Source: a virus. From it: a stretch of DNA of 20,052 nucleotides. The DNA is taken from IMG/VR virus record IMGVR_UViG_3300048930_000306, positions 1 to 20,052 of that record; one strand, given 5' to 3'. Under the pieces are notes generated by a model. That model was not told where the DNA came from, made no database searches, and was given only the letters and a program-made list of their open reading frames with translations. Position numbers and translations under genes: made by a program. This document shows positions 3,441 through 14,964 of the stretch, one piece after another (within the stretch, counting starts at the first letter, position 1; every line of letters starts with the position of its first letter).

Positions 3441-5099
3441 TCAATCACCGCTCTCCCGCATCGACTCCAAAATCGCCTTGGCTTCGTCGGTACTTTTCGC
3501 ACTCTCCAGTGCCGCACTCAAAGCCGCCACGCGGGTGTTCTGTGCCATCGTCGGCCCGCCGATCATCGCTGGCTCGCTAGCCGTCTTCGGTTCCCGTTCC
3601 CTCTCGTGCCGCTCTTCGTCGTAATCAAGGCCCAGCTCACCCGCCCAGGTCCGCTTACTCTTGACACCGTTACGATTGAGAATCTCATTCTCGCGGGCTT
3701 GCTTTTCTGAATCTTGGCTCGCCACATCGGGCAGCGTGACCTTGACCTGAATCAACGATTTGAGTTGCTTCATCGTCAGATTGCGGAAGCCGCTTTGACG
3801 CAAGCGAATCGCCAGGACTTTCCAGACAAGGCTTTCGACCATCATGCTGAAACTGCCTTGCTCAGCTTGGCGTGAACGCACAAACGATTCGTAAGCCATC
3901 GTGGCGGAATTGAGGTTGCTGTTGGAGGCATCGCCCGAAATCATAAATTCGGGAATGTTCTTATGGACGGCGATCATGCGGGCCACGAACTGCGCGACCT
4001 CCACGTAAACCGCACTCCGCAACTGACCCAGGGGTCCGACGGTCGCTTCCATGCCGCTGGGAATGTCTTTGACGGTCCCCGGCGAAGTGTGCTCGACGCT
4101 ACGATTGACGGCACCACTCTCGGTCGGGCGTTGATAGTTCGCCGAGGCATTGGCGGCCACCATGTTTTGAATCGAACTGCTAGTCGTGCCCGGTGCGTGC
4201 TGGCGAATCATCACGATGGCCGCCAGGATCGCCGCCCCCACCGCTGTATTCCGCTTGATTTTGTAAAGCATCTCCAGGTCATCAATGATCGGTTCATAGG
4301 AACCCCACCCGCGGCGAGCTTCCCGTCCGACGTTGATCTTGTAATGCTCCGCGCGTGAGGCGGGTAAGTAATCCCACTGCTCTCCCTCGTGATCGAATAC
4401 CGCGTGATAGCCAATCGGGCGCGTTACGTCATCACGGCGTAGCGTGTGGTTGTGATGAGTATGAACGCCCAGCCACCAGTGATTGAGCTTGTGGGCGCAA
4501 CCGAGGTGCCGCTCTAGTTCGCGTTTGTTCGCCGGTTCCAAGATGGCGTCGGGGTCGGTAAGTTCACACCGCACGTTCTCATCTTCGGGATAGAGAGTCG
4601 GTAGAACTTCCCCCTCAGTAAATGACTTGCGGTGCATCTCTTGATCGAGGCAGCCCACGAAATTGTTGTATTCAAGAAACGCATCAACTTCGGCTTGCGC
4701 AGCCTTAGCGAGTTCGCCAGCGTTCTTATTCTTGGGCGAGACTTCGACCGTACAGCCCTTGCCGATAACGTATTCGGTCAGTCGATCGCGCAGACCGATT
4801 GCGACGGGGAACATCGCTTCCATATTGCGGGCACGGGCGCGCATCCGGCGCAAGTCGTTGTTGTTTTCGTAAAGCGGACGATAGCGATCTTCGGTACGGT
4901 CGCGAATATCGGTGAAGAAATAGGGGGGCTTGTAATTGCCACCGCCGAAATCCTCGTAGGTGGGATATTGATTCCAGGGGACGCGCACCGGCAGCGGTGA
5001 TTCGAGCATGCGCAGCACGGCCTCGGCATGGGCCTCTTCGACCTTGGCTTGCATTTCTTCGAGGCGTTGCTTGGCGGGTTGTTGTTTGGCTTTGCTCAT
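3441..5099 (-). CDS. Portal protein (lambda-type)
   Basis: The 552-aa product has a usual portal length. Portal-like features are the NNDLRRMRARARNMEAMFPVA segment (79-99), the following VIGKGCTVEV strand, a central helical and wing region, and near residue 380 the stretch beginning HKNIPEFMISGD with SNLNSATMAYESF. This resembles lambda-family portals, where IPEYM-SGD-S-ANF-SA is typical. The protein forms the dodecameric ring at the special vertex through which DNA is packaged and ejected. The N-terminus is a charged coiled coil (about 5-35). ATG at 5099 overlaps the terminase stop as ATGA. The family is assigned from recalled motifs and the terL-portal-minor head order. Confidence 0.88.
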   Translation of the reverse strand: MSKAKQQPAKQRLEEMQAKVEEAHAEAVLRMLESPLPVRVPWNQYPTYEDFGGGNYKPPYFFTDIRDRTEDRYRPLYENNNDLRRMRARARNMEAMFPVAIGLRDRLTEYVIGKGCTVEVSPKNKNAGELAKAAQAEVDAFLEYNNFVGCLDQEMHRKSFTEGEVLPTLYPEDENVRCELTDPDAILEPANKRELERHLGCAHKLNHWWLGVHTHHNHTLRRDDVTRPIGYHAVFDHEGEQWDYLPASRAEHYKINVGREARRGWGSYEPIIDDLEMLYKIKRNTAVGAAILAAIVMIRQHAPGTTSSSIQNMVAANASANYQRPTESGAVNRSVEHTSPGTVKDIPSGMEATVGPLGQLRSAVYVEVAQFVARMIAVHKNIPEFMISGDASNSNLNSATMAYESFVRSRQAEQGSFSMMVESLVWKVLAIRLRQSGFRNLTMKQLKSLIQVKVTLPDVASQDSEKQARENEILNRNGVKSKRTWAGELGLDYDEERHEREREPKTASEPAMIGGPTMAQNTRVAALSAALESAKSTDEAKAILESMRESGD

Positions 5100-6514
5100 G
5101 TCGTCAATAACTCCTCTTCGGGTTGCTCGGCATAACCGCCCAGCATCTCTTCACAGAATCGAATCCCCATCTCCAGCGCATCCGGCCCGTCGTCGTGGAC
5201 CTGCGGAATTCCAAATTGCATCAACTGTTGCAGCAATAGTTCGCAGCCGGGCGTGCGTAAGAGCTTGATACGCCCCGCTCCCAGCAATGGACCCAGACAG
5301 CGAATCCGCACACGCTTATCGAGGTGGTTGTTGATACCGTAGGTGGTTCGCATGGAGATCCGCCGCGTCGACTGCATGGCTTGCTCGAATATCGGGCGCA
5401 GCATTTCTTGGAACTGATTAGTCTCGCAGCAGAAGAAATCGGGGTCGACCAATTCCATCCACTCCACGCCCTCGCTAACGATCCGGTCGATGGGCCTGCG
5501 GGCAATGTTCGCGTCGACGTAGTACGTCCCGTTGTGGCCTTTACAGACCGCCACAAACGCCGAGAAATCGGACTTGTTGCTCTTTCCCTTACTGGGATCG
5601 AGGGCGACAACCGTAATGAGCCGATCCACCGGCCATTCCGTGCACCAGATACTCTGAAAGTATTCCGGTGGCCACTCCGCCCCCTCGCTATCGACGATAT
5701 TCCAGTTGCCCCACAGAAGTCGTTGTTGTTCAACGTGCGGTAAGGCGAGAAGATTCGCCCGATAGCCGGGGTCTTTTGAAGTGAGGGCGGGGTTGTCGTC
5801 TAGTTTCGCGGCGATGAACGTCAGCGACTTGGGTTGGGATTCCGGGTAATCCTCTAACAACTCTTCACGGCTATTCGCCCAAATCAATTGTCCGCCGATA
5901 CGAATAAACCACCGCAACACCCCGGAACGCTCAGCAATCGGGTAGCCGGTCGAGGGTTCAATCCACCAGGAAATCAAACGAGCGACCCACGAACCCGCGT
6001 CGGGGTTGCAGGTGCAGCGCACATAGGGCGGGATGCCGCACGTTGAGCGGTTGCGGCTGAGCATGTACCAGAATTGACCTTCGGTGAAGCGTGTCAGCTC
6101 ATCGAAGCAAATCAGCGGACATTGTGCGCCCTGGTACTTGTGTTTGTCTTGTTCGTGCTCCAGGTGATCAAACTTCACCACGTTGTCGGCGTTTTGACCG
6201 TCACACGGGAATCGCCAGGCCAGATCGCCGATCCTCGCTTCTGCTCCCACCCGCGGATATATCTTTTCCGCCTCGGTCCACAGTCCGCCGACGTTCATCA
6301 CTTCCTTGGTGGTGCGGCGCAGAATGAGAGCGCTAAACCCTTTCACGCCCAGATTGCGAAGTGGTTCAAGCAGCAGCGCGTAGGACTTCCCGCCACCTGC
6401 CGCGCCGCCAAAGATGGCGATGTCGGCGCTGGTCGACAGGAATTGCTCCTGCGGTCCCGGTTGCGGTGCGATCCGCTCAATGTTGGCTGCTACCATTTCC
6501 GTTGGCGTGTCCAT
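5096..6514 (-). CDS. terL: Terminase large subunit
   Basis: The 472-aa protein has the two-domain layout of phage packaging motors. The ATPase half has a Walker A loop FGGAAGGGKS (35-44), Walker B LICFDE (134-139, Asp138 and Glu139) and a coupling-type motif CTCNPD (167-172). The RNase H-like nuclease half has Asp306 in VVALDPSKG, Glu364 in CCETNQF and Asp441-Asp445 in HDDGPDALEM, the expected metal-binding acidic residues. It pumps DNA into the prohead and cuts concatemers. The start at 6514 overlaps TerS by 38 bases; Met7 (6496) is possible. It couples to portal by ATGA. All key residues look intact. Confidence 0.95.
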   Translation of the reverse strand: MDTPTEMVAANIERIAPQPGPQEQFLSTSADIAIFGGAAGGGKSYALLLEPLRNLGVKGFSALILRRTTKEVMNVGGLWTEAEKIYPRVGAEARIGDLAWRFPCDGQNADNVVKFDHLEHEQDKHKYQGAQCPLICFDELTRFTEGQFWYMLSRNRSTCGIPPYVRCTCNPDAGSWVARLISWWIEPSTGYPIAERSGVLRWFIRIGGQLIWANSREELLEDYPESQPKSLTFIAAKLDDNPALTSKDPGYRANLLALPHVEQQRLLWGNWNIVDSEGAEWPPEYFQSIWCTEWPVDRLITVVALDPSKGKSNKSDFSAFVAVCKGHNGTYYVDANIARRPIDRIVSEGVEWMELVDPDFFCCETNQFQEMLRPIFEQAMQSTRRISMRTTYGINNHLDKRVRIRCLGPLLGAGRIKLLRTPGCELLLQQLMQFGIPQVHDDGPDALEMGIRFCEEMLGGYAEQPEEELLTT

Positions 6515-6902
6515 TCAGTTTGGGAATGATTTCGGGGTCGATGGTTGTGCGGTTGTTGTGTGGTAAGTAAACCTGAACGGCGACGGACTGACTGACCTCG
6601 TGTTTGTCGGCCACTTCTTTGTCGAGCATCTTATGCCGCTCGGCTTGGTCGAGCTTCGCAGCGGAAAGCAGCACATCCCACAAGCGTTTGACGGCGCGGG
6701 AGTCTTTGGCGTCAAGATTCAGGCCCAGCAGTTCGCCCGTCTTTTCGAGATACTCCTGAATCTTTTCTTGGCTCAAACATCCCAGCGAAAGCATCTTGGC
6801 GATATCCATGCAGTCGCGGCGCAAGTGACGTATCCCACCCGCCTGTTGCTGAGTGTGCGACAGCAGCTTGCTCGGATCGCTATGCCCGTTCGTTTCACTC
6901 AT
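6477..6902 (-). CDS. terS: Probable terminase small subunit
   Basis: This 141-aa mostly helical protein lies immediately upstream of terL and overlaps it, the classic position for the DNA-recognition subunit. The region RHLRRDCMDIAKMLSLGCLS (25-44) may be a helix-turn-helix-like part, followed by helices (45-95) fit for oligomerisation and a flexible Asn/Gly/His-rich C-terminus. The ATG at 6902 overlaps the upstream stop as ATGA. Sequence of small subunits is poorly conserved, so this call rests mainly on synteny, size and helicity. An unrelated regulator is the alternative. Confidence 0.7.
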   Translation of the reverse strand: MSETNGHSDPSKLLSHTQQQAGGIRHLRRDCMDIAKMLSLGCLSQEKIQEYLEKTGELLGLNLDAKDSRAVKRLWDVLLSAAKLDQAERHKMLDKEVADKHEVSQSVAVQVYLPHNNRTTIDPEIIPKLNGHANGNGSSQH

Positions 6903-7909
6903 TCCGGTTCCGCCTGCACTTCCACTTCGCCATAAACGGTCTTAGGTCCGCTCGCGTTCTGCGCGGTGACTTCGGTCTTAATCCAATGCGTCTCACCAGC
7001 TACAGCATCCGCCGCCACTTCAAACTCCACCTTGGGGACAGTCGCATCGTGGCCAATCGCAGGATCGGCTAACGTAATGTCGTCGGTTGCGGTCACAAGC
7101 TCGGGGTCGCCCTGTGCAGAGATAACTTTGCCTTGGGGGAGGATGGCGCGTACGTCGCAATTCCAGCCCGCCCGCCAGGTATCGCCGGGATGGACGATGA
7201 GCTTATTAGTGGAACGCCAAGTCCCGTCGCCGCTGCGGCGGAGGTTCCAAACGTGGTCCACGGGGTCTAGGTCGCGCGTGTCGCGTGTTCCCGCTCCCGC
7301 CGCTTCTGCCGCCGTCTCCGCCGCTTCCGCCGCCGCCTTAGCCGCAGCAATATCAGCGCTTAAGTTCGCACCCACAGGCTCACCAAGGAAAGACAACACC
7401 GTATCTCCACCAGTGAAGTTGCCGAGTTTCTCAGAGGCAGCATTCGCAGCTGTGGCAGCGAGATTGAGATTCGTGCTATTCGCGTCCATGTCCGCACGGG
7501 TGGCGGCTGCGATGGCTGCTGACGTCGGCGGTTGTGCCGTCAGCACTACGCCCACTCGCCAGGTCTTGTCCGTCGCGCCTGTCACACCTCCTACAGTGCC
7601 AACGACATGAGCGCGGTAGCTTTTGCCGACCTCGAAGCCATTGGCGGCCGAGAGCGTGATCGGCACTTCGTAAGAGCCATCGGAGTTGTCCTCGTCAACC
7701 AGAGTCATCGAGCCGCTCAGGCCCATGTACGTGCCGTCCTCGAAGATTCGGTACGTCGGAGCCGAGTCCGCATCAACGGCCGTCCCCGTGGCTGGGTCGT
7801 GCGTCGTCGCTGGGATACGAAGCACCGAGTCGATAGCTCGCGTTCCCAGGTCGCCAGCCACACAAGGCGCGACCAATACCAACCACACTAAGAACGAGAA
7901 GATTCTCAT
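6899..7909 (-). CDS. Sec-signal, fibre-like beta-rich protein with Ala-rich coiled coil (336 aa)
   Basis: The N-terminus is a clear Sec signal peptide: MR, then a hydrophobic run FSFLVWLVLVAP, with a likely cut after CVAG (about residue 19). Residues about 25-120 (RIPATTHDPATGTAVDADSA, then a YRIFEDG strand region) resemble a beta-sandwich module I recall from phage tail or fibre proteins that describe time- or value-like fields. Residues about 130-210 are Ala-rich with heptad character (AAAKAAAEAAETAAEAAGAG), likely a trimeric coiled coil. The C-terminal third is beta-rich. Fibre-like build plus a position next to packaging genes suggest a receptor-binding or surface protein, but an export signal is atypical for virion parts. 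It couples to TerS by ATGA. Confidence 0.65.
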   Translation of the reverse strand: MRIFSFLVWLVLVAPCVAGDLGTRAIDSVLRIPATTHDPATGTAVDADSAPTYRIFEDGTYMGLSGSMTLVDEDNSDGSYEVPITLSAANGFEVGKSYRAHVVGTVGGVTGATDKTWRVGVVLTAQPPTSAAIAAATRADMDANSTNLNLAATAANAASEKLGNFTGGDTVLSFLGEPVGANLSADIAAAKAAAEAAETAAEAAGAGTRDTRDLDPVDHVWNLRRSGDGTWRSTNKLIVHPGDTWRAGWNCDVRAILPQGKVISAQGDPELVTATDDITLADPAIGHDATVPKVEFEVAADAVAGETHWIKTEVTAQNASGPKTVYGEVEVQAEPE

Positions 7910-9924
7910 CGCACGACCCCCGCGAAAATCGAGTTGCGCCCGTCAATGGCTTCGTAGCTTTCGGGGCTTACATACATGTTGGTGTTGTAGTTGGAGAAGC
8001 TCGCGTACGTGCCTCCCCAGAATGTCACGAATGTTTTGCCGTTGACGTTCCAAGCGTACGGCCGGGCGTTGACTTGGTAGGTCAAAAACTCTGAAAGCCA
8101 ATCGGTGATCGTCCAGGTGCTGTCGATCTTCTCGACCGCATGCACGCGGAAATCACTCGCCCCGAATTCACGCGAGACATAGACCTTATCGATGTCGTTC
8201 GGGTCTTGAGTGACTCCGCCGCTGTAGTGCTGCTGGACGGCATAGAGATAGTCCGCGGTGCCGGTCGTGCCAGCATCACAAATCTTTTCCGTGGTCCAGA
8301 CCCCTTCGACCAAGCGGGCTTGATGATACTCAGCCGCCGTGGTGGCGTGGCTTGGAAAGACGGCGAACACTGCGGTCAAAGTCCCCTTCACCCGCTTGTA
8401 ATCCCAGATCCAACACTCGCTCGTCGTGCCGTCGTAAACCAAAGTCAGGTCGCTTAACGAGAGTGGCAAATCACTCGCATCACCGATCAGCGTGCCGTCG
8501 GACTTGTAGATGGTGAGCGCGCCCGTAAGAGGGTCGATCAGCACATAGCCCGCGTACAGGCTGTTGATGGCCTCGTCAGGCTGTCCGGTGGTGCAAATAA
8601 AATCGAACCGCGTACCGCTGGTTCTCCACCAGCGAAAGTACGGCCGGGTGTTACCCGTCGAAACAAACTCCGTAAAGGTACTCCACGTGGCCCCGTCGTC
8701 GGTGCTGGTAAAGAATCCTTGCGGGTAGTGCGTGCCCGCTCCCACGTTGTAACGGCAGAAGTGATAGATCGTGTCCTGGTAATCGGCCTGCATCACCTGT
8801 GCGTAGGCAATTTGCAGATTGTCCTCGATCTTAACGGCCGCTTCCCAAGCCGACGCATCTTCTTTGTTGGTTGAGCGTGCCGCCCAGCAGTCACCGTTGT
8901 GGTGTGAAAAGACGGCCAACAGGTAGCCACTCTTGAGGCGGATGATCGATGGGTCATCGTGATCGTCAGTCTCGCCGACGGCCTGATTGATCGTGCCAAC
9001 GACTATCTCGCCCGTGTCCAAGTCGAGTTCGGCGATCTTGGGCATCTCGCCCGTGCGTGGAAAGCCGCCGAACCAGAGCTTCCGCAGCGAGCTCGCCATC
9101 ACGGGCGAATTGAACCAGGTGCGAACGCCGTCGACCATTCCCAGCATCCAAGGATTGGTGAACGTGAGGCTTTGCAGATCGGCATAGGTTCGTGAGTTTC
9201 CGCTGTTGTTGAGCCCTTTGATTTCCGCCGGACTCAATACTCGCCGCCAGATACCCACATCCTTGACCGCGATATCGGAGAAGAGAGACGGCGTGGGATT
9301 AGCGAGCGCCCCCAAAAACAGAGACGCAGTGCCGTCCATCGGCGAGGTCGACTGTGTTGTGCGATTTGGTGCCCCGTCGTCGACTTGGATCGCCAACACC
9401 GAATCGAGGTGATCGTACCAGACGGTGATGTTGTACCAGACGCCGATGGTCGGGGCGCCGAAGTTATCGGCGACGAGCGTGGTTCCCGAGCCACCGCTGG
9501 GACTGCCGATACTCACGGAGAAGCGGTCAGTCGTGTTGCTCCAGAAGATGGCGTATTCACGTTGAGCTGTGGCCGTGGTCCGCCACTTGTTGAGGATATA
9601 CATCTGCGAAGCGGGCTTGCTCAGCAGCATCAACTTGATTCGCAGCGTGAAGCTTGTGTTATATAAGCTCAGGTCGGCATTATCGGCGATGGAGGCGTAA
9701 GCCTGATCGGCGATTAAGATCGATCGCCCGCCCTGATAACTGGCGAGTGTGTCGCCCGAAGAGAGTGCGAGGCTATTGCCGCGACCGGTCGCATCGGCCA
9801 CGACGGCGCTCGCATCCGTTTCGTTGCAGGGCCAATAGGCCACCAGACCATCGGTGAGCGACGGTGCAGCAAAGCACGGCGAGCCGCCCAACAACAGCCC
9901 CAAAATCAATAACAGCCGTTTCAT
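7906..9924 (-). CDS. Secreted LamG + BNR_4-like beta-propeller protein
   Basis: I chose Met at 9924 (672 aa), giving ATGA overlap with the upstream gene and a signal peptide MKRLLLILGLLLGG with likely cleavage after CFAA (about 20). Residues about 22-250 look like a LamG/concanavalin-type lectin domain (GLVAYWPCNE at the start, DVGIWRRVLSPAEI near the end). Residues about 265-660 look like a BNR_4-family propeller: DDHDDPSI (320-327), a perfect Asp-box STDDGATW (407-414), NTRPYFRWW (425-433). This fold is shared by sialidase-like proteins and PL24/PL25-type polysaccharide lyases. A role in binding or degrading a surface polysaccharide is inferred; catalytic residues cannot be fixed from sequence alone. 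Confidence 0.72.
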   Translation of the reverse strand: MKRLLLILGLLLGGSPCFAAPSLTDGLVAYWPCNETDASAVVADATGRGNSLALSSGDTLASYQGGRSILIADQAYASIADNADLSLYNTSFTLRIKLMLLSKPASQMYILNKWRTTATAQREYAIFWSNTTDRFSVSIGSPSGGSGTTLVADNFGAPTIGVWYNITVWYDHLDSVLAIQVDDGAPNRTTQSTSPMDGTASLFLGALANPTPSLFSDIAVKDVGIWRRVLSPAEIKGLNNSGNSRTYADLQSLTFTNPWMLGMVDGVRTWFNSPVMASSLRKLWFGGFPRTGEMPKIAELDLDTGEIVVGTINQAVGETDDHDDPSIIRLKSGYLLAVFSHHNGDCWAARSTNKEDASAWEAAVKIEDNLQIAYAQVMQADYQDTIYHFCRYNVGAGTHYPQGFFTSTDDGATWSTFTEFVSTGNTRPYFRWWRTSGTRFDFICTTGQPDEAINSLYAGYVLIDPLTGALTIYKSDGTLIGDASDLPLSLSDLTLVYDGTTSECWIWDYKRVKGTLTAVFAVFPSHATTAAEYHQARLVEGVWTTEKICDAGTTGTADYLYAVQQHYSGGVTQDPNDIDKVYVSREFGASDFRVHAVEKIDSTWTITDWLSEFLTYQVNARPYAWNVNGKTFVTFWGGTYASFSNYNTNMYVSPESYEAIDGRNSIFAGVVR

Positions 9925-10754
9925 TCGACCCCCTCGATCGGCACTTTCAGCAGATTGATGCACGGCACAAAGGCACGTCCGCGAGCCGCGGCGACTTCCG
10001 CCGTGATGTTTTTCCCCGGTAAAAGTTCCAGCACCAAAGGATGCAAAGCGACATCACGCAACGGATCGGCGGCATTCTTGCCCGTGGCCCAGCCATTGCG
10101 GCCTTGCCTGTTGAGCCAAAATTCTGTTTGCAGCACGACCGGCAAATTCCAAAACGGCCTACAGTCGTCACGAGCGAACGTGTGAGGCTCAATGGCCGAA
10201 CCAATGCCGTAGTTCGCCAGGTTTTTCATCAGCATCCGAACGTGATGCGTCGGTTCCGTCTCGGCGTCGAACACAACCATATCGGGGCGAGCCTTATAGA
10301 CCGGCCACCATTCCGCCTGCACGCGATTGACCCAAGCACGATCCGTCTCGCCCGGCTTTTTGGGGAACCACTTGGAGCCGCCCAGATACCACGCTTCCCA
10401 CTTGGTGCGTTTCTTTGAGGCTTCGATGAGTGCGTCCCAATCAGCACGAGCCTGATAGTTCGCGTTGCGTGGTTCGGCTTTCGCTCGCCGCGACATGATG
10501 GAGAACTGGTCAAGCTCCATCGGGAAGCCGTCATGTCCCGCTGGGTTGTGGAGCATGATGAAATCGAACTGCTCGGCCTCTTCGTAGACCTTGCCCCACG
10601 GCTTAGCGGCGGTCACGTACCAGGGACCGTAGTCTCCACCGCCATCGTTATAAACGGCCACGAAACGACCCGGCGTAGGGGGCTCGGCAGCCGGTAGACT
10701 TCCGCATAGGCAGAGTACAAAAAGGGCGGTGAGAATGTATTTTGATGGTTTCAT
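9921..10754 (-). CDS. Secreted protein of unknown function, possible TIM-barrel (277 aa)
   Basis: It has a strong signal peptide (KYILTALFVLCLCGSLPAAE, cleavage probably after PAA near residue 23). The mature part is Trp-rich with alternating strand-like and helical stretches: FDFIMLHNP (63-71), KWEAWYLGG, DMVVFDAETEPTHH with several acidic and His residues, GIGSAIEPHTF, and a C-terminal AFVPCINLLK. This rhythm recalls TIM-barrel hydrolases that act on glycans, with E/D residues at strand ends, but I cannot name a family. Overlap with both neighbours is ATGA (10751-10754 and 9921-9924), placing it in one translational chain with the lectin/propeller protein. A carbohydrate-active role is only an inference. 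Confidence 0.65.
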   Translation of the reverse strand: MKPSKYILTALFVLCLCGSLPAAEPPTPGRFVAVYNDGGGDYGPWYVTAAKPWGKVYEEAEQFDFIMLHNPAGHDGFPMELDQFSIMSRRAKAEPRNANYQARADWDALIEASKKRTKWEAWYLGGSKWFPKKPGETDRAWVNRVQAEWWPVYKARPDMVVFDAETEPTHHVRMLMKNLANYGIGSAIEPHTFARDDCRPFWNLPVVLQTEFWLNRQGRNGWATGKNAADPLRDVALHPLVLELLPGKNITAEVAAARGRAFVPCINLLKVPIEGVE

Positions 10755-12308: not shown

Positions 12309-12668
12309 TTAGTGACAACGCCAACACGCGAACAAACCACGGCCAGCGGCGCGTCGCGCTTGCCTGCGCTCAATGCCGATGATCGCCTTGCCGACTTTCA
12401 GCGCGCCCTTGCCGACGCGCTTCACGCCGATACCAACAGCCTTCGCGGCTTTCAAAGGAACGCGCACGGGAGCGGTCAAGACGGGGTGGTTCGCGCCGAA
12501 GGTTGTCGCGTAGGTGCGGCTGCTGACAATCGAGTGTTGCGGGGCGGACTTGGCGGACTCGACAGACGCGGCGGAGCATTGGTCGCCAACACAAGCCGGG
12601 GGCTGGGCAATCGCACTTGCGCCCATGATCAGCAACACAACAATGGCTAGTAAATACTCAAGTTTCAT
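12309..12668 (-). CDS. Secreted cationic amphipathic protein (119 aa)
   Basis: I chose Met at 12668, which has AAAGGA 6 bases upstream. Residues 1-22 form a Sec signal peptide (MKLEYLLAIVVLLIMGASAI, then AQ-P). The mature N-terminus contains a Cys pair (ACVGDQC). Residues about 75-112 are Gly/Lys/Arg-rich with periodic hydrophobics (KAAKAVGIGVKRVGKGALKV, then GKAIIGI and RRQARRAAGR), compatible with a cationic amphipathic helix. It ends CWRCH. Such peptides can act on membranes; phage disruptins are one known class. Alternatively it is a structural or host-derived secreted protein. It overlaps the upstream zinc-ribbon gene by 11 bases and is followed by a 221-base gap. Confidence 0.65.
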   Translation of the reverse strand: MKLEYLLAIVVLLIMGASAIAQPPACVGDQCSAASVESAKSAPQHSIVSSRTYATTFGANHPVLTAPVRVPLKAAKAVGIGVKRVGKGALKVGKAIIGIERRQARRAAGRGLFACWRCH

Positions 12669-12831
12669 TTTCAATCCTTTCAATGATTTCTGTGTCATGT
12701 GAACCACAAGACGGGCACTCTAATAAACTTTCGTCCATCTCGAATGGGTAAACATTTGCCCATTCATAGGTGCAGATACAGCACCACACCTTACTGGCCA
12801 GCCATCCTTTTGTTTCAGTTTCGCTCAGCAT
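12658..12831 (-). CDS. Zinc-ribbon miniprotein (57 aa)
   Basis: I chose the ATG at 12831. The pattern is WCCICTYEW (about 15-23), a spacer of some 16 residues, then CPSCG, giving two CxxC knuckles of a zinc ribbon, followed by an acidic tail (DTEIIERIENET). It overlaps the preceding gene by 17 bases and the following secreted protein by 11. Function unknown; the knuckles suggest zinc binding and possibly protein or nucleic-acid contacts. Confidence 0.65.
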   Translation of the reverse strand: MLSETETKGWLASKVWCCICTYEWANVYPFEMDESLLECPSCGSHDTEIIERIENET

Positions 12832-13019: not shown

Positions 13020-13718
13020 TCACTTCTCCAAAAGGGTTTGCAATCGTGCATAATCGGCAGGCTCGCCGTTAATCAGTCCATGCGGATAAGCCTGACCTGG
13101 GTGTTTCTTGATCTCGTTGTTGCCGTGAATCACGTAAGAATGTTTCACGCCTGCCTTGGTTAGCTCTTTAGTGAGCCACTTGCAGGCGGGGCAATTCGCC
13201 GTGGCGTAGACCACGACGTTGAGTGGTTCGGTGGTAGCAGCGGGCGGAGCGATCTCTTTAATTGCCGTATCGGCCACCGGCTCATCACCGGGAGATGCGT
13301 CTGCGCTGTCGCTCGCCGCTGCTTTGGGTTTGCAATGCTTCTTGACCGACTCGATTGCGGTCCACATGGTTACTGCGTCGTAAAGCGACCAATCCTTGTT
13401 GCGCTGCCAGAATTCATCAATCTCGGCTTTGTAGGTCGCATAGAGGCCTTGGATTTCTGCGTCAGGTATTGGCGGCAGTCCATCAACGTATTCCTCACTT
13501 GCGCAGGGAGCTTGCGCGGAGACTTCCGGCTCTTGCGCGGGAAGTTCACTGGTCACAATCACATAAGCCGCCGCGTAGGCGTAGGGAATCTTGAGATCCC
13601 GCTCGCCCGTGGAGCAAGAAACGGTTCCGCATCCATCCATCACAAAAAACGTAACGACTAGCAGAATGAAAGCCAGCGACCAAACGCAACAACAGCCGCA
13701 AAGATTCTTTGGGGTCAT
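13020..13718 (-). CDS. Membrane-anchored glutaredoxin/thioredoxin-like protein (232 aa)
   Basis: The N-terminus has a Cys cluster (CGCCC, 7-11), then a TM helix (about 12-27) followed by DGCGTVSC; the lipobox is not canonical, so an uncleaved anchor is more likely than a lipoprotein. Residues 40-160 form an acidic, Ala/Pro-rich linker with a helix-rich centre (about 85-130). The C-terminal domain (165-232) is glutaredoxin-like: VVVYATANCPACKW with the CPAC active site (176-179) and a candidate cis-proline at Pro212 in YPHGLINGEP. If exported, it would act as a thiol-disulfide enzyme outside the cytoplasmic membrane. It overlaps the papain-like protease gene as ATGA. Confidence 0.78.
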   Translation of the reverse strand: MTPKNLCGCCCVWSLAFILLVVTFFVMDGCGTVSCSTGERDLKIPYAYAAAYVIVTSELPAQEPEVSAQAPCASEEYVDGLPPIPDAEIQGLYATYKAEIDEFWQRNKDWSLYDAVTMWTAIESVKKHCKPKAAASDSADASPGDEPVADTAIKEIAPPAATTEPLNVVVYATANCPACKWLTKELTKAGVKHSYVIHGNNEIKKHPGQAYPHGLINGEPADYARLQTLLEK

Positions 13719-14473
13719 ACGCCAAGCCCCCCTTCGCTCCAGTCCATTTCGCGGACCTGGGGTTCTGAGAGGTCAGACAAGCCAAAGGCTACCGTGCCGT
13801 CGATTCCGAGATAGCGTTCAACCTTTTCTTCGCTCCATTCCGTCCAGCCATCGCCGTCCCAATCTTCGCCCCACGAGTTGGCCACCGGCAATTTGCCATC
13901 AACCAATGATCCAATGCTTGTGACGCAATGCCACGCACGGCGATTGAATTCCCATGGCACGCCCCAAATGATGCCACCCATGCCCGACTTCTGGAAATCA
14001 AACACCTTGTCCACGGTGTCGAGGCGGTAGCTGTTGAGAATGAGGCGCTGCTTAGCATCCTCGTAGAAGTCAGGCGACCATTCCGTGCGGAAGCGGTTTT
14101 TGTAGGGGTAGAGTGATTCGAGCGGCAGGCCGATTGTCTTGGCGACTTTGACAGCACCGAAGATCGAAGCGCCAGCGGATTCCGAAGGGCGACTGCCGCC
14201 CGCCTTTTGGGATTCGACCCAGGCAAACATACGGTTGAGCTGTACAACGGTTTTGCCGCGACTAGCCAAGTAGATGCAATACTCGGCGTCGGTCGTTAGG
14301 CCGTGGCCCACGCAGCTAGGCCGGGGATTCTGGTTCTCGACCTGCATCCAGGTTCTGGGATGGGGAAGCTCGATTCCCGGCCCGCTTCCGCAGACTGGCG
14401 AATACTCCATCGACTCCGCTTTCAGGCGGTCAAGTTGCTCTAAGGCTGGATCGTAACCACGGAAATCGCTCAT
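13715..14473 (-). CDS. Papain-like (C1A-type) cysteine protease with EF-hand-like loop
   Basis: I chose Met at 14473 (252 aa), which overlaps the upstream stop as ATGA. All papain-family elements are visible: oxyanion Gln48 exactly six residues before nucleophile Cys54 in QNPRPSCVGHG, His182 in RRAWHCV, and Asn199 in VANSWGEDWDGDGWTEWSE. No signal peptide or long pro-region is present, only about 45 residues before the active site. Residues 204-215 (DWDGDGWTEWSE) match the 12-position EF-hand loop and directly follow the catalytic Asn. It probably cleaves protein substrates, in lysis, head maturation or host takeover. Its membrane-protein neighbours point to the envelope. It is coupled to the glutaredoxin-like gene. 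Confidence 0.88.
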   Translation of the reverse strand: MSDFRGYDPALEQLDRLKAESMEYSPVCGSGPGIELPHPRTWMQVENQNPRPSCVGHGLTTDAEYCIYLASRGKTVVQLNRMFAWVESQKAGGSRPSESAGASIFGAVKVAKTIGLPLESLYPYKNRFRTEWSPDFYEDAKQRLILNSYRLDTVDKVFDFQKSGMGGIIWGVPWEFNRRAWHCVTSIGSLVDGKLPVANSWGEDWDGDGWTEWSEEKVERYLGIDGTVAFGLSDLSEPQVREMDWSEGGLGV

Positions 14474-14964
14474 TGACTCAGCCCCTTGATTACGTCGCTG
14501 TAGAATCCATGCCACTTCGCATAATCGACCGGCACGATGTCGTGCTTGCCGTTACCGTCCGTGTCGGTCGTGATGCCACGCTTGAGCAGTTCGGCTTGCA
14601 TCAACGCGCTCAAGAATGGCTTGTCGCCGATGGGCTTTTCTTTGCCGAACGCCAGACGATTGCCCCGCTTGGCAATCTCGGCCAATTGCTCTGTGTCGAG
14701 TTGAACCTTTTCCTTTTCGAGTTCGACAACCAGTCCGTCGAGGCCCGCGTACATGTCGACCAGCGTACAAGCATCCTCACTAGTCCCGCCGTTCTCTTTC
14801 CACGCCTTAGCGATCTCATCCGCAAACGTACTGACCACGGGGGCTGGCTGGGGGTTGACGACAACGCTCGGTTGTCTCGTGAGATTCCAAGTCGCAATCG
14901 ACCCAGGAACTCCCAGGCAAAGAACTGCCGCAATTGCCCAAACTAGGTGCGCGCTAATTTTCAT
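14470..14964 (-). CDS. Membrane-anchored or exported protein with dockerin/EF-hand-like loop (164 aa)
   Basis: Residues 1-25 form a signal peptide or anchor (ISAHLVWAIAAVLCLGVPGS), followed by a Pro/Val-rich linker (to about 45) and a mainly helical domain. Near the C-terminus DTDGNGKHDIV (about 134-144) matches the first nine positions of an EF-hand/dockerin calcium loop (D-x-D-x-N-G-x-x-D). Start overlaps the upstream stop as TAATG; the end overlaps the papain-like protease as ATGA. Sharing a predicted calcium loop with its coupled neighbour is notable. No family recognised; it could be a partner, inhibitor or membrane tether for the protease. Confidence 0.65.
   Translation of the reverse strand: MKISAHLVWAIAAVLCLGVPGSIATWNLTRQPSVVVNPQPAPVVSTFADEIAKAWKENGGTSEDACTLVDMYAGLDGLVVELEKEKVQLDTEQLAEIAKRGNRLAFGKEKPIGDKPFLSALMQAELLKRGITTDTDGNGKHDIVPVDYAKWHGFYSDVIKGLSQ

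Follow-up and report, generated by a model that had tools for sequence, protein, structure and literature searches.

Three consecutive genes with predicted Sec signal peptides beside the terminase genes of an uncultivated phage: a putative exported fibre-type cassette

Tailed phages are assumed to build their fibres in the cytoplasm. One phage protein known to leave it is Lom of lambda, exported to the outer membrane and encoded amid the tail genes (PMC12309495); another, Lys44 of phage fOg44, is a Sec-exported endolysin, phages using the Sec pathway late in infection (PMC6116005). No description of signal-bearing tailed-phage fibres was found in the open-access literature, to which our search was confined. 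Here, we analysed three consecutive genes of an uncultivated phage (A277, B672, and C336) which, as the best explanation of their sequences, probably form a fibre-type cassette whose products exit the cytoplasm via Sec and act outside it.

Gene order, likely host, and predicted signal peptides

The window, i.e., the whole stretch of DNA analysed, is an IMG/VR record of 20,052 bases whose likely genes lie on the minus strand (Table 1). In the order of transcription, a C1-like peptidase candidate is followed by a glutaredoxin-like gene, several small genes, A277, B672, C336, TerS, TerL, and the genes for the portal, a minor head protein, and a protease. ATGA overlaps link A277 to B672, B672 to C336, C336 to TerS, and TerL to the portal gene; thus, the trio is part of one coupled run with the packaging genes. 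An alternative GTG start upstream of B672 would give a product of 685 aa. The G+C content of the trio (0.578-0.612) was similar to that of the head genes (0.545-0.597).

Among cultured phages, the nearest full-length relatives of the window TerL share 42-43% identity with it, whereas the portal matched none. A DNA pattern for the portal recovered the Planctomycetota MAG SZAS-6, which encodes relatives of the window's TerL, portal, minor head protein, and protease, and a portal homolog was present in 26 of the 392 Planctomycetota genomes sampled. This kinship of the head module makes a member of Planctomycetota the most likely host. Separately, the BLAST match between the window TerL and that of one related prophage (L002) was confined to residues 272-469 (42%), the N-terminal parts being unlike, as if terminase halves had been swapped.

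The original prediction held that three ATGA-linked genes (277, 672, and 336 aa) starting with signal peptides lie just before TerS/TerL, and proposed signal peptide prediction as a check. The overlaps and the prediction agree with it, since a rule-based caller gave a Sec signal and a cleavage site on all three proteins. The predicted signals and cuts are MKPSKYILTALFVLCLCGSLPA^AEPP for A277, MKRLLLILGLLLGGSPCFA^APSL for B672, and MRIFSFLVWLVLVAPCVAG^DLGT for C336, where a cut at CVA^GD is equally possible; each begins with positive charge and has a hydrophobic core as well as a small-x-small site. Of the 1101 genes in the fetched loci that encode 200 aa or more, 41 (3.7%) scored 10.5 or higher, and the caller flagged no TerL or portal protein among those identified in the prophage loci. 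From this background, the chance of three consecutive signal-bearing genes is ~5e-5 per position, so that a chance origin of the run seems unlikely. That chance or wrong gene starts explain the whole pattern could be argued from a predictor which is rule-based only, but the starts are coupled and the arrangement is seen in other phages too, and we regard this explanation as very improbable.

Signal-like N-termini are also seen on two further products encoded upstream of the trio in the window (132 and 164 aa), so that at least five genes of the record may be exported. Upstream of the terminase, Planctomycetota prophages with the window's head module often pair a papain-like peptidase candidate with an exported thioredoxin- or glutaredoxin-like protein, and in one of them (L047) a signal-bearing trypsin-thioredoxin fusion occupies this site. 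Pfam matches back up the Thioredoxin_7 assignment in L045 and the Trypsin assignment in L047, while the peptidase is below the Pfam cut-off and was read from motifs. Such a pair might serve the lysis of a disulfide-rich protein envelope. An apparent ABC-type ATPase-acetyltransferase fusion, recognised by eye, is another gene conserved in several of the Planctomycetota prophages, again upstream of the terminase.

Table 1. Coordinates of the features discussed, in the window and in other phage loci.
Feature	Sequence	Coordinates	Strand	Remarks
Papain-like (C1-type) peptidase candidate	window	13715-14515	minus	Pfam E 0.21 only; gene type recurs here in related prophages; neighbour, outside trio
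Glutaredoxin-like protein, N-terminal membrane segment or signal	window	13020-13718	minus	Pfam Glutaredoxin E 0.019, CPAC motif; neighbour, outside trio
A277	window	9921-10754	minus	277 aa; predicted Sec signal, residues 1-22 (about 10689-10754); orphan
B672	window	7906-9924	minus	672 aa from ATG; predicted Sec signal, residues 1-19; Laminin_G_3, residues 74-236; BNR_4 sialidase-like propeller, residues 313-500
C336	window	6899-7909	minus	336 aa; Sec signal predicted at residues 1-19, then an Ig/BppU-N-like domain (about 20-122), long helices (130-205), and a C-terminal part of low confidence
Ig/BppU-N-like domain of C336	window	7544-7852	minus	homologous to N-terminus of signal-less phage proteins
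Probable TerS	window	6477-6902	minus	assigned by position and ATGA coupling to C336; best PHROG match not significant
TerL	window	5096-6514	minus	tblastn against 1483 phage records
Portal, Planctomycetota prophage type	window	3441-5099	minus	related portals in Planctomycetota prophages
Gene with signal-like N-terminus	window	12309-12707		132 aa
Gene with signal-like N-terminus	window	14470-14964		164 aa
Peptidase/thioredoxin-type pair	window	13020-14515		
Peptidase/thioredoxin-type pair	L043	9220-10385		
Peptidase/thioredoxin-type pair	L045	8680-9876 and 10361-10885		
Peptidase/thioredoxin-type pair	L046	9915-12163	minus	
Peptidase/thioredoxin-type pair	L047	13436-15413	minus	
Peptidase/thioredoxin-type pair	L048	7407-8686		
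ABC-type ATPase-acetyltransferase candidate	L045	5429-6697		
ABC-type ATPase-acetyltransferase candidate	L046	14002-15078	minus	
ABC-type ATPase-acetyltransferase candidate	L051	9769-11424		
ABC-type ATPase-acetyltransferase candidate	L052	7490-9067		
TerL	L002	9335-10609		
Tandem Ig genes	L116 (G399)	8270-9537		first signal-bearing, second signal-less

Domains of the three proteins and their relatives

Two of the three proteins had been expected to be fibre- or glycan-like, and this was borne out by Laminin_G_3 and BNR_4 domains in B672 and by an Ig/BppU-N-like domain with predicted long helices in C336. A277 is an orphan, with no family, fold, or relative in Pfam, PHROG, cultured phages, PDB sequences, or Planctomycetota genomes; its structure predicted from the single sequence had a pLDDT of 33, and a glycoside-hydrolase-like barrel, suggested by strand-like motifs only, was dropped. 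In B672, Pfam matched Laminin_G_3 (E 7.5e-9) and BNR_4 (E 2.9e-12), the latter above the curated cut-off (47 bits vs. 27.3), and a profile of the BNR_4 part gave weak, piecemeal matches to sialidases; comparison of A277 and B672 with PDB sequences yielded nothing useful. Among 246 Planctomycetota genomes, 14 encode chromosomal relatives of B672, some of which match the LamG part only, and a signal peptide was called in 11 of the 15 relatives. The mature protein would contain six cysteines.

The Ig domain of C336 was predicted as an Ig-type sandwich (pLDDT about 96) with long helices after it. In a viral structure library it matched proteins with a BppU N-terminal domain, minor tail proteins, and one tail fibre protein; its PDB matches were for the most part generic Ig folds but included some phage connector and baseplate chains. 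Peptide-pattern searches of viral contigs with A277, B672, and C336, and searches of cultured phages, returned no relative. A loosely specified degenerate DNA pattern for the C336 peptide LSAANGFExGKxxY matched 26 viral contigs, and alignment of the Ig domain extended the family to 80 environmental phage loci; C336 matched L128 over residues 21-163 (phmmer E 2.8e-33), and the Ig profile matched C336 with E 1.9e-43. Domains of the YLGSWKIDDLLTF type are present in many environmental phage contigs (L078-L103, L104-L180). The consensus Ig domain had no match at E 1e-3 among 50,697 phage records, and its profile found one weak match, with a stop inside (G370), in 392 Planctomycetota genomes. By its homologous N-terminal domain and predicted fold, C336 fits a phage BppU-N-like Ig fibre family, and its relatives so recovered place it in a phage family rather than a host family.

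The kinship of the BNR_4 part of B672 with Planctomycetota chromosomal proteins, most of them signal-bearing, would also be in keeping with lysogenic-conversion genes taken from the host together with their signals and expressed in the lysogen, not in the lytic cycle. However, the ATGA coupling runs into TerS/TerL, the composition of the trio is like that of the head genes, and C336 comes from a phage family barely represented in the Planctomycetota genomes, so we give this origin a low probability. Whether the same trio recurs in related phages was also raised with the original prediction, and here the answer was negative, since A277 and C336 occurred in none of the 392 Planctomycetota genomes and none of the three in cultured phages. 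The recurring unit is a type of cassette, not the trio itself.

Signal-bearing and signal-less homologs in other phages

The majority of the 80 homologs start right at the Ig domain (e.g., M-S-Y-LGSWKIDDLLTF), and six carry a clear signal peptide ending exactly at the domain start, where the initiator methionine would be. The junctions are AHA^AYLGSWKIDD (L104), ASA^GYYGSWKIND (L109), ARG^AYLGSWSIDD (L132), ASA^QYLGSWNIDD (L091), CFA^EYEGTYEID (L179), and AYA^TCENGSWKV (L180), compared with CVA^GDLGTRAIDS in C336 of the window. Consequently, removal of the signal would leave the exported form with the same N-terminus as the signal-less form. Misread starts were ruled out for the signal-less homologs, as no nearby upstream in-frame start yields a signal peptide. 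The family evidence rests wholly on uncultivated phages, and the proportion of six in 80 is not an estimate of frequency, the loci having been found through motif patterns and many contigs being fragments. The G+C content of the signal-bearing loci ranged from 0.40 to 0.65, which, as an indirect sign of host range, suggests several host groups. In a tree of 69 Ig domains, the seven signal-bearing rows need seven changes, i.e., they are unclustered, with weak support, the well supported branches forcing only two; the signal appears to have been gained several times in front of the Ig domain.

The signal-less homologs examined belong to the head-tail block. In L112 the gene has that of the major head protein on one side and that of the tape measure on the other, and in L113 and L136 it is a few kilobases from one or other of these. 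With a narrow set of TerL queries, a terminase was recognised near few signal-less copies (four loci), from which we draw no conclusion. The location in the head-tail block is what would be expected if C336 and its neighbours were ordinary virion fibres assembled in the cytoplasm, with a hydrophobic N-terminal extension and signals unused or uncleaved. Such a reading is improbable, since the extensions have all three parts of a signal peptide and are found again in six or more other loci, as well as on neighbours from different families. A single Ig copy is present in the window and in each of the six signal-bearing records, most of which are fragments, and a secreted duplicate beside a normal copy was therefore unsupported in these seven. 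As an exception, L116 has tandem Ig genes, only the first signal-bearing, beside a signal-bearing 624-aa beta-helix protein, an arrangement that would fit two different locations.

Signal peptides were also concentrated around the signal-bearing copies. Among neighbours within three genes, 12 of 28 carried a signal around signal-bearing copies vs. six of 306 around signal-less ones (counts within a locus are not independent), and, with the window added, a signal-bearing neighbour was present in 5/7 vs. 5/65 loci (Fisher P = 3e-4); the caller found none in L104 and L091, two of the seven, and in L091 the signal-bearing Ig gene lies 15 bp from TerL. In G397, TerL is followed by a small gene, a 296-aa gene, six signal-bearing genes in a row (277, 1116, 146, 159, 566, and 631 aa, of which the third is Ig, the fifth LamG, and the sixth beta-helix), an endolysin-like gene, portal, and major head protein, and two lower-scoring starts were the only other calls in that record. 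Four signal-bearing genes come after a 2158-aa gene in G394; one of them matches fn3 weakly and another contains Golvesin_C. The partner genes of these runs carry LamG, beta-helix, fn3, and Golvesin_C domains. In lambda-like phages, lom and side tail fibre genes are located downstream of J, the central tail fibre gene; in G398, a 2090-aa homolog of J has a set of signal-bearing genes downstream of it, among them one of 980 aa (LamG/beta-helix) and one of 584 aa (Ig).

Among the related Planctomycetota prophages, that of G195 (L047) encodes a 1598-aa fibre-like protein with a LamG-like start recognised by eye, a cadherin domain, and a signal peptide after an internal start codon; a 158-aa signal-bearing protein comes after it, and the pair stands directly before the portal. 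At the corresponding place, SZAS-6 has a 376-aa fibre-type protein without a signal, and the fibre-like proteins of L002 (379 and 976 aa) are both signal-less; thus, both kinds are present in one phage group.

Putative route of export and comparison with known systems

Export of the trio proteins appears likely from their sequences. They would be made, presumably late, from the coupled run with the packaging genes and translocated by Sec, with cleavage of their predicted signals, and the mature proteins would bind or process surface glycans, as suggested by the LamG, sialidase-like propeller, and BppU-like Ig domains. The cut in C336 would fall where its signal-less structural homologs begin, leaving the docking-type N-terminal domain intact. 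The site of action may be the envelope, the matrix, or virions joined once the inner membrane breaks at lysis. The original alternatives were surface export and a different assembly route. Export is well supported by prediction and comparison, because signal-less homologs exist, the signal sits exactly at the domain start, and signal-bearing copies cluster with signal-bearing fibre-type genes; the suggested superinfection block, biofilm loosening, and release aid look indistinguishable from virion docking by sequence.

If only the free branch of this explanation applied, the products would never enter the virion and would be Lom-like morons among structural genes, acting at the surface or outside the cell, where binding or trimming host glycans would block superinfection, keep progeny off debris, or loosen the matrix. 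The propeller of B672, with its secreted host-type relatives, Lom, and the late use of Sec for endolysins would favour this reading, which is possible, if somewhat short of an even chance, but C336 retains the docking-type domain, is cut exactly at the N-terminus of the structural homologs, and is of a type found as the sole Ig copy in signal-bearing records. These same features, together with the structural location of the signal-less homologs, would favour docking on virions after export, although we consider it rather unlikely. A doubtful extension is assembly in two compartments, where heads and tails would form in the cytoplasm and receptor-binding fibres would be exported by Sec, matured outside, and docked at lysis, the switch being a signal added several times before a docking domain. 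As a speculation, an oxidising compartment might suit disulfide proteins, given the cysteines of B672 and the exported thioredoxin-like genes nearby in related prophages.

The recurrence of a secretion signal precisely where a fibre domain begins, and across runs of neighbouring fibre-type genes, suggests a second compartment for fibre maturation or widespread secreted phage adhesins, and either would alter the annotation and choice of receptor-binding proteins from uncultivated phages.

In brief, the trio resembles Lom in being exported, here by prediction, and encoded among structural genes; however, Lom is an outer membrane beta-barrel, whereas the trio is a run of genes with fibre-type domains shared with signal-less structural homologs. 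Like the Sec-exported endolysins, these are phage proteins with a predicted cleavable Sec signal, presumably produced in the lytic cycle, and signal-bearing and signal-less relatives exist in both cases, but endolysins are lysis enzymes and the trio is of fibre type. B672 is similar to BNR_4/sialidase-like propeller proteins with LamG, meeting the Pfam cut-offs for both domains, and differs in being phage-encoded, coupled to the terminase, and weakly linked to solved sialidases. Finally, C336 shares with BppU-type baseplate upper proteins and minor tail proteins an N-terminal Ig-like domain, by fold match, and the helices after it; as a putative difference from these relatives, which were compared by fold, it has a predicted Sec signal ahead of the domain.
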